Shown here one piece after another: positions 22,548-28,666 of a DNA stretch of 29,861 nucleotides. The notes under the pieces are model-generated. The model had not been told where the DNA came from. It did not search any database and was given only the letters and a program-made list of their open reading frames with translations. This DNA comes from a virus: positions 1 through 29,861 of IMG/VR virus record IMGVR_UViG_3300032236_000891. One strand, 5' to 3'. Made by a program: the position numbers and the translations under genes. Numbering within the stretch: the first letter of the stretch is position 1; each line of letters opens with the position of its first letter.

Positions 22548-22549
22548 CC

Positions 22550-22577
22550 AATACTTGACCGGAGAAACTGAGAACTT
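22550..22577 (+). repeat. 28-bp repeat, copy 1 (promoter upstream element)
   Basis: Identical over 28 bases to 28573-28600; the start is AATACTTGACCGGAG and the end GAGAACTT. In both copies TTGACC starts exactly 33 bp before the TTGCCA -35. Outside these bases and the promoter hexamers the flanks differ, so the element is conserved as a unit. Confidence 0.85.
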
Positions 22578-22587
22578 TTTCGCTATA

Positions 22588-22615
22588 TTGCCAAATGGGG
22601 CGGAACCTGTATAAT
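22588..22615 (+). promoter_or_regulatory. Plus-strand promoter firing into non-coding DNA
   Basis: TTGCCA (22588-22593), 16-bp spacer, TATAAT (22610-22615), with the 28-bp upstream element. Expected start near 22622. No gene starts before 23038, which has its own promoter, so the product is probably an RNA. Confidence 0.75.
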
Positions 22616-22621
22616 TGGAAA

Positions 22622-22822
22622 CATTCGAAAGCGACTGGGATGCACACGGTGCCTGCGTACGGTTTGATCCGAAAACAAAAGGTTTAATACCGGCGCCGCA
22701 TTAGAACTTTTTTCTTATTCCGAGAGACGGATTGAAACCAAAAGGTCACACGCTCGACCATTGATAGTCATTTTGTTTTCATTCCGTGTGATCCTGTAAT
22801 GATCCGGTATTAATCCGGCATC
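22622..22822 (+). ncRNA. Predicted structured non-coding RNA
   Basis: No coding frame is convincing here and a promoter ends just upstream. Complementary arms nest: P1, GGAT(G)CACACGG at 22638-22649 with CCGTGTGATCC at 22784-22794 (11 bp, one bulge); P2, GAAAACAAAA 22671-22680 with TTTTGTTTTC 22771-22780 (10 bp); inside it P3, 22681-22692 with 22728-22739 (GGTTTAAT-A-CCG with CGG-ATT-G-AAACC, 11 bp, two bulges) and a short P4, GGTC 22744-22747 with GACC 22756-22759. A last hairpin, CCGG-TATTAAT-CCGG, is at 22804-22818. This gives a branched RNA of about 160-200 nt. Bases 22684-22693 could instead pair perfectly with 22804-22813, an alternative fold. No known RNA family is recognised and no terminator is obvious. 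The fold was derived by eye. Confidence 0.55.
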
Positions 22823-22877
22823 TGACCTACAAACTAAGACTTTGGTGTTACACTATACTGGCGACACGGTTAGCGAT

Positions 22878-22896
22878 AATGAGAATCATTCTCATT
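22878..22896. promoter_or_regulatory. Fur box (perfect 19-bp palindrome)
   Basis: AATGAGAAT-C-ATTCTCATT is a perfect 9-1-9 palindrome, and with the preceding GAT it gives GATAATGAGAATCATT, a near-exact match to the proteobacterial Fur consensus GATAATGATAATCATTATC. No iron gene lies next to it. The nearest gene start is about 140 bp downstream (23038). Confidence 0.75.
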
Positions 22897-22913
22897 TGGT
22901 GCAGAATAAAAAG

Positions 22914-22934
22914 TTATCCACAGAGTTATCCACA
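22914..22934 (+). other. Two tandem perfect DnaA boxes; candidate replication origin or DnaA decoy
   Basis: TTATCCACA occurs at 22914-22922 and 22926-22934, same orientation, 12 bp apart, both identical to the strongest E. coli DnaA box. The pair TTATCCACAGAGTTATCCACAG is typical of chromosomal origins. An AT-rich stretch, ATTTTATACTGAAT, follows. Together with the non-coding setting this suggests a DnaA-dependent origin or a DnaA-titrating site. Confidence 0.75.
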
Positions 22935-22984
22935 GCATTTTATACTGAATACTGTACCGGAGTGCTGTAATACTATTTGGTTAC

Positions 22985-23012
22985 TTGCCATTTTACAGTT
23001 TTTGCGTATAAT
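22985..23012 (+). promoter_or_regulatory. Promoter of the 130-aa protein gene
   Basis: TTGCCA (22985-22990), 16-bp spacer, TATAAT (23007-23012). ACCGGAG at 22956-22962 lies 29 bp before the -35, matching the upstream box at other promoters. Confidence 0.75.
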
Positions 23013-23037
23013 TGTATTTTTAACTGAGAGAGATATT

Positions 23038-23430
23038 ATGTTACAAGTAGAAAAATTGAATACTTTTGTTTCTGATTCATTCTTAGAAACTATCATGGGT
23101 GAAACCGAAAGTATTATTGCAAGTGTTGAAGATTTTGTGGATGAATACAAATGTGTTACAAGTCTTGATGAATTTGAAACCATTCGTTTTATTGCTGAAG
23201 AATTACAAGAAAAAGTATTAGATTTTGCTTGTTCTGTAATGAATTATGATACATTATATGAAATTGAAGAAATTAGTATTACATTGTATCAGCATATTAA
23301 GTATTCTGTACAAGAACTGGCTGAAATGAATACTTTTGATTTCAATTCGGATGAAATTGAGTACTTGTGTTCTAGTATTGATATTATTCGTGATGAAATT
23401 GATACTTTAGTACTCCAGTTGAAAAACTGA
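23038..23430 (+). CDS. Acidic helical hypothetical protein
   Basis: 130 aa from the ATG at 23038, chosen because GAGAGAG precedes it and the promoter -10 is at 23007; an in-frame ATG at 22879 would place coding sequence through the Fur and DnaA sites and the promoter. Acidic, almost all helix, two Cys, no membrane segment. It is the only gene between the hub region and the next promoter. Function unknown. Confidence 0.6.
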   Translation: MLQVEKLNTFVSDSFLETIMGETESIIASVEDFVDEYKCVTSLDEFETIRFIAEELQEKVLDFACSVMNYDTLYEIEEISITLYQHIKYSVQELAEMNTFDFNSDEIEYLCSSIDIIRDEIDTLVLQLKN

Positions 23431-28524: not shown

Positions 28525-28574
28525 ATATTATTGCTTGTGGAATAATTATCATTATGGAGTTTTTGATACGATAA
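28521..28574 (+). CDS. Possible 17-aa hydrophobic peptide
   Basis: MNIIACGIIIIMEFLIR, coupled through ATGA to the preceding membrane protein. A hydrophobic peptide of this size is possible in phages, but nothing else supports it; it ends in the 28-bp repeat. Confidence 0.2.
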   Translation: MNIIACGIIIIMEFLIR

Positions 28575-28600
28575 TACTTGACCGGAGAAACTGAGAACTT
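28573..28600 (+). repeat. 28-bp repeat, copy 2 (promoter upstream element)
   Basis: Identical to 22550-22577. TTGACC is again 33 bp and AACTG 22 bp before the TTGCCA -35. The distance and identity with a site 6 kb away argue for a conserved regulator site or recent duplication. Confidence 0.85.
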
Positions 28601-28610
28601 TAGTATTAGG

Positions 28611-28638
28611 TTGCCATTTGTACCAAAACCTGTATAAT
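28611..28638 (+). promoter_or_regulatory. Promoter of the AAA+ ATPase gene
   Basis: AGTATTAGG abuts TTGCCA (28611-28616), 16-bp spacer, TATAAT (28633-28638). It carries both the AGTATTAGG box and the 28-bp upstream element, the most complete promoter of the family in this window. Confidence 0.85.
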
Positions 28639-28666
28639 TGTCTCTATTGATTGATAAGGAGTGACT

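Follow-up and report, generated by a model that had tools for sequence, protein, structure and literature searches.

The window analyzed here is the whole 29,861-nt stretch of DNA, a 29.9-kb IMG/VR fragment whose source phage is T4-like. Its genes include a T4-type primase and a cyanophage-type peptidase, and the best cultured matches are in cyanophages, with only 36 to 46% identity. IMG/VR sequences are metagenomic. Positions 22548 to 23037 form a divergent gap, with small minus-strand ORFs on one side and a plus-strand ORF starting at 23038 on the other. An earlier note had described a consensus-type promoter here, firing into a segment with no credible gene, and both statements hold. The early genes to the right of the gap are a row of tiny plus-strand ORFs with several strong promoters of their own. 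The features of the gap are the following.

22588-22615, plus strand: sigma-70 promoter TTGCCA-N16-TATAAT, 11/12 consensus
22623-22657, plus strand: conserved RNA element as a whole, from the predicted transcription start (39.8 bits with model R1; alignment A2)
22624-22629, plus strand: invariant 5' box UUCGAA, in 104/104 copies in A2 and fixed by the search patterns
22630-22636, plus strand: P1 hairpin AG-CGA-CU, in which 22630-22631 pair with 22635-22636
22637-22645, plus strand: 3' box GGGAUGCAC (consensus GGGRUGSAC in A2, largely set by the search patterns)
22833-22838, plus strand: ACTAAG motif; in relatives that lack an inserted gene, it lies ~170 to 210 nt 3' of the element
22914-22922, plus strand: DnaA box TTATCCACA; the box array is also present in relatives L004 and L009
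22926-22934, plus strand: DnaA box TTATCCACA, 12 nt from the first and in the same orientation
22985-23012, plus strand: following early promoter TTGCCA-N16-TATAAT, past the DnaA boxes and without the element, serving ORF 23038-23430

Several repeats were seen in and around the gap. A 68-nt stretch comprising the upstream region and the promoter (22550-22617) is repeated at 28573-28640 with 79% identity, and blocks like AATACTT...GAACTTTT, perhaps a phage regulator site, are found upstream of many early promoters. A perfect, Fur box-like palindrome, AATGAGAATCATTCTCATT (22878-22896), lies 3' of the ACTAAG motif and 5' of the DnaA boxes, with near-copies at the matching place in L149, L160, and L168; it was dropped as a candidate because it is exact in the window only. 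Iteron-like repeats (TTGCACTTT / GACACTTT) occur in L067, L068, L079, L148, and L171, placed after the ACTAAG motif and before the DnaA boxes or the early promoter.

A conserved hairpin element at the predicted transcription start

When the window was aligned with its closest relatives, L004 and L009, which also carry the promoter of 22588-22615, near-identical blocks were found directly 3' of the -10 box. A first pattern scan with ATTCGAAAGC-N0-2-GACTGGGRTG, which has no promoter in the pattern, returned 52 phage loci, and a -10-like box was present just upstream in 48/48 non-identical copies. A second scan with the middle left open gave a larger family with a different middle. The family layout is UUCGAA, a hairpin of 1 to 4 bp with variable sequence (P1), and GGGRUGSAC, and it is the first ~35 nt that are conserved. 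The AG/CU stem defines type A, to which the copy in the window belongs, and all other copies are referred to as type B. Family counts derived from the scans are minimum values, and alignment A2 holds at least 104 non-redundant copies.

The closing pair of P1 is Watson-Crick in 104/104 copies (AU 47, CG 40, GC 15, and UA 2) and the second pair in 94/104, with no G-U pair among 198 paired cells. The covariation score of P1 was 1.139 versus 0.234 for shuffled data and at most 0.125 when the partners were slid; in these A2 statistics, related copies do not count as independent observations, and the type A stem was built into some of the search patterns. The last scan, in which neither stem partner nor promoter was fixed, served as an unbiased check. 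C-G closes 74/81 unique copies there, against ~25% by chance, and the remaining 7/81 look like chance matches in GC-rich coding DNA. All but one of 56 distinct middles form a short stem-loop, with loops of 3 to 8 nt. Beside the AG/CU of the window, the stems include CA/UG, CU/AG, CAG/CUG, CUG/CAG, CUA/UAG, GC/GC, GGA/UCC, GGG/CCC, and UC/GA.

Intermediate copies and genomes carrying both types indicate that types A and B are homologous. A profile of type B copies only misses the window, and the sequence-only type B model R2 is weak, with four type A copies at E values of 0.005 to 0.014 and no match to the window, because MAFFT scattered the hairpin. A profile from which both the window and the relative nearest to it in the set had been left out matches 22623-22665 with an E value of 2e-7, and this match, together with AG-CGA-CU, places the window in the UUCGAA-P1-GGGRUGSAC family with its covarying P1. 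The conserved hairpin is well supported by these sequence comparisons, and the element is best read as a new phage RNA family.

A stable fold within the first 60 to 180 nt was not found (mean z of ~0), nor was long-range pairing between the element and the sequence 3' of it (mean z of +0.05 in 45 copies). Type B copies have a slight folding excess at +21 to +90 (z of -0.46 ± 0.20), which points to a second hairpin in some copies but not all. Since the P1 stem alone is too short for stability, the element is likely to have a larger tertiary fold or a protein partner.

The predicted start coincides with the beginning of UUCGAA in most copies, 5 to 11 nt past the -10 box. Another ~20 copies, among them several near-identical ones, have the promoter, but the element lies roughly 15 to 45 nt from the start, which argues that it is a transcribed module. 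As a separate observation, the longer-leader copies L413, L419, L422, L428, L431, L443, and L454 have CATAATAAGAAA in common, and longer-leader copies carry a second small hairpin 5' of UUCGAA (CGG-GUAGA-CCG or CAG-GUAGA-CUG) that apparently covaries.

The element is common to well over a hundred uncultivated large-phage sequences. It was found in 22/23 large phage records, with one or two copies per genome; the element-bearing records are 147 to 345 kb in size, and their Gp23 capsid genes are both typical T4-like and strongly diverged. Pairs of copies in the same orientation, ~0.1 to 3 kb apart and often one per type, were seen at L150, L166, L167, L180, L184, L195, L271, and L149. Model R1 had no match in T4, phiW-14, phiM12, Cr30, HTVC008M, or HK022, and three short element queries gave no real BLAST match among cultured phages. 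The element was not found in 369 sampled Gammaproteobacteria genomes, which were searched with stricter filters and with no positive control in the set. Two bacterial-genome matches were discarded, one as a chance match in coding DNA and the other as a phage contig in a MAG. The latter, L195 (CAIVQI010000123.1), has two element copies and was binned in a Bacteroidetes MAG, probably by mistake, given its promoters of proteobacterial type.

Rfam 15 gave no match at gathering cutoffs for the window and 14 related loci, or at an E value of ≤5 for the window, in agreement with the earlier note, which had recognized no known RNA family; the Rfam matches elsewhere in two loci are tRNAs only. The phage structured RNAs in Rfam are likewise phage-borne, intergenic, and conserved, but no Rfam 15 family matches the element.

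DnaA boxes and the course of the transcript

The DnaA boxes at 22914-22934 were missed by the earlier note. Statistically, the element is tied to DnaA-box arrays 30 to 640 nt downstream: a tandem box pair is present in 8/23 large records, and every pair in them falls in that range, 3' of an element copy. Of 77 copies, 29 are followed within 700 nt by two or more TTATNCACA boxes, compared with 1/341 of the other sigma-70 promoters of these loci (Fisher p = 8e-23); on the upstream side, the count is 0/77. Up to ~10 TTATNCACA boxes occur per site (L342 and L369). A box cluster, with two boxes in the window, is not a feature of every family member: no strict TTATNCACA box lies within 700 nt of the element in ~60% of copies, and a tandem pair is absent from the long records G003, G004, G005, and G007. 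The sites share with DnaA-dependent (oriC type) origins their TTATNCACA arrays, with boxes often 11 to 12 nt apart and in one orientation, but they belong to lytic phages and come immediately after a conserved unit of promoter and RNA. A literature search found no papers on DnaA boxes in T4-like phages.

The element RNA contains 38% G versus 20% at other promoters, and GGG runs at 1.52 versus 0.14, a composition that favors R-loops. Many copies (L336, L382, L388, and L330, and many of type B) are transcribed against both neighbor genes and therefore have no gene to lead. The type B transcript would, from its sequence context, comprise the element and the boxes where present, and then end or meet a convergent gene. 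A terminator-like hairpin lies within 35 to 220 nt of the element in 19/101 copies, compared with 7.4 expected (e.g., L400, L339, and L322); in the window, no plus-strand terminator-like site was found between the element and the early genes.

Other motifs were seen 3' of the element. In many type B copies (L322, L326, L330, L331, L354, L362, L402, and others), an inverted repeat, AAGTTAGT-n-ACTAACTT, is located ~30 to 50 nt away, and the ACTAAG motif of the window group may be a half-site of it. In L024 and L159, an A/U-rich hairpin and T tract (AAAACAACA...TGTTGTTTTTT) follow right after the element; this terminator-like arrangement would give an RNA of ~80 to 90 nt.

A candidate replication origin and alternative readings

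An origin with a dedicated RNA element is the reading that we favor, based on the promoter, the divergence, the G-rich transcript start, and the DnaA boxes. The element at 22623-22657 lies at the predicted 5' end of a promoter-driven transcript, and we see about an even chance that the region entered by this transcript is a replication origin. Host RNA polymerase would start at the sigma-70 promoter, and the G-rich, structured 5' end would help the RNA persist, either in an R-loop or through binding by a protein of the phage or the host. The RNA would be the leading-strand primer or the duplex opener, and the opened downstream region and the DnaA boxes would then load the replisome. Such a site would be a replication origin of these large Gp23-type phages and would resemble the T4 origins, which combine a promoter with an unwinding element, except that host DnaA would take part as well. 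The wider proposal, that this new RNA class in several kinds of large phages is the initiating transcript of a DnaA-assisted origin, is advanced only tentatively.

P1 covariation, the one or two copies per large record, the downstream box arrays, the copies against both neighbor genes, and the R-loop-favoring composition speak for an origin. The copies without strict boxes and the long records free of tandem pairs speak against it. GC skew over G001, G004, and G006 tracks gene orientation, and a clear origin signal is absent from it. The DnaA boxes and the RNA could merely lie in a common early-control region.

In T4, the transcript at oriF and oriG forms an R-loop in an unwinding element, and oriE has an early promoter with direct repeats (iterons) nearby; the T4 origins have few obvious sequence features in common, and the review makes no mention of DnaA (PMC3016281). 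What oriF, oriG, and oriE share with our locus is a promoter-driven transcript at a transcriptional divergence in a Gp23-type phage. As at the R-loop origins of T4, a promoter with a sigma-70-like -10 box is predicted to drive RNA into the candidate origin in the window and its relatives. However, oriF and oriG have a MotA box at -30, whereas the promoter of the window has a consensus-like -35 hexamer in the style of early promoters. T4 R-loop origins have an A+T-rich unwinding element downstream, and the T4 genome itself has no R1 match.

It is rather unlikely, in our judgment, that the element is a freestanding small RNA acting in trans early in infection, where it would bind a protein or RNA target of the host or the phage, with the DnaA boxes as a separate neighbor that, e.g., titrates host DnaA. 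Such an RNA would fit the many copies standing alone against both neighbor genes and the excess of terminator-like hairpins, and the presence of the element in quite different large phages (Gp23 E values of ~1e-145 versus 1e-82) suggests a common host target. However, most copies have no nearby terminator, and the constant tie of box arrays to the downstream side is left unexplained.

Still less probable is a role in cis, like that of put in phage HK022, in which the RNA would bind the transcribing RNA polymerase so that pauses and terminators are ignored. Like put, the element would be a small RNA at +1 of early sigma-70 transcripts or close to it, with two copies of put per genome and one or two of the element, and the 5' hairpin with conserved single strands resembles the put layout (PMC9378689). 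The lack of terminator-like sites between the element and the early genes of the window would also suit such a role. However, put acts on downstream genes, and the many copies that oppose both neighbor genes have nothing to antiterminate. Besides its sequence, put is characterized by two long stem-loops; R1 has no match in HK022, and the 1- to 4-bp hairpin, with folding at the level of shuffled sequence, gives no stable two-stem fold.

We consider it very unlikely that the element acts as DNA, that is, as an initial-transcribed sequence or a single-stranded DNA hairpin read by a protein. The lack of G-U pairs would also be expected of a DNA hairpin, and TTCGAA is a DNA palindrome, but stem length and sequence vary between fixed flanks, which calls for a single strand, and the ~20 displaced copies show no tie to the melted promoter. 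A short reading frame that would start with the RUG within GGGRUG (MHTVPAYGLIRKQKV in the window) is scarcely credible: R is always A or G and a 15-codon frame is kept in L004 and L009, but codon 2 is always GAC/CAC and never GAU/CAU (partly imposed by the patterns), the amino acids at codons 3 and 4 change freely, stops fall anywhere, no ribosome-binding site lies at a normal distance, P1 covariation is left unexplained, and the block varies in length by 1 to 2 nt, which is incompatible with a frame through it.

Equally hard to credit is the branched RNA of three nested complementary arms drawn in the earlier note, which we rejected for want of energetic or covariation support and because two arms are absent from most relatives. 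Arms 1 and 2 do pair as described (11/11 and 10/10), but arm 3 pairs only at 9/12. RNAfold of 22616-22860 gave -59.2 kcal/mol versus -55.4 ± 4.1 for shuffles (z of -0.93; 33/200 shuffles reach or beat it), and covariation of the drawn fold was 0.146 versus 0.146 ± 0.013 shuffled (alignment A4, 10 relatives), so that nesting beyond chance is not shown. Arm 1 keeps 10 to 11/11 pairs in L009, L170, L143, and L163 via G-U changes but has no compensatory change; the arm 2 pairing is gone in 6/9 relatives, and the arm 3 partner is deleted in 8/9. What remains of the proposed structured RNA is that a promoter-driven, unlisted, conserved RNA starts here, its ~35 nt contained in the segment (22622-22822) but not singled out.

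What has been found is a covariation-supported RNA family outside Rfam, in phages for which no close cultured relative was found. If a DnaA-assisted origin does start from this transcript, the R-loop or primer would be licensed by its conserved 5' end, and an RNA motif would define a lytic phage origin. The rules of R-loop formation are listed as unsolved for T4 (PMC3016281). An origin role, if true, would link a lytic phage origin to host DnaA, make it testable which transcripts become replication primers in T4-like phages, and allow the replication origins of many uncultivated large phages to be recognized by a sequence signature.
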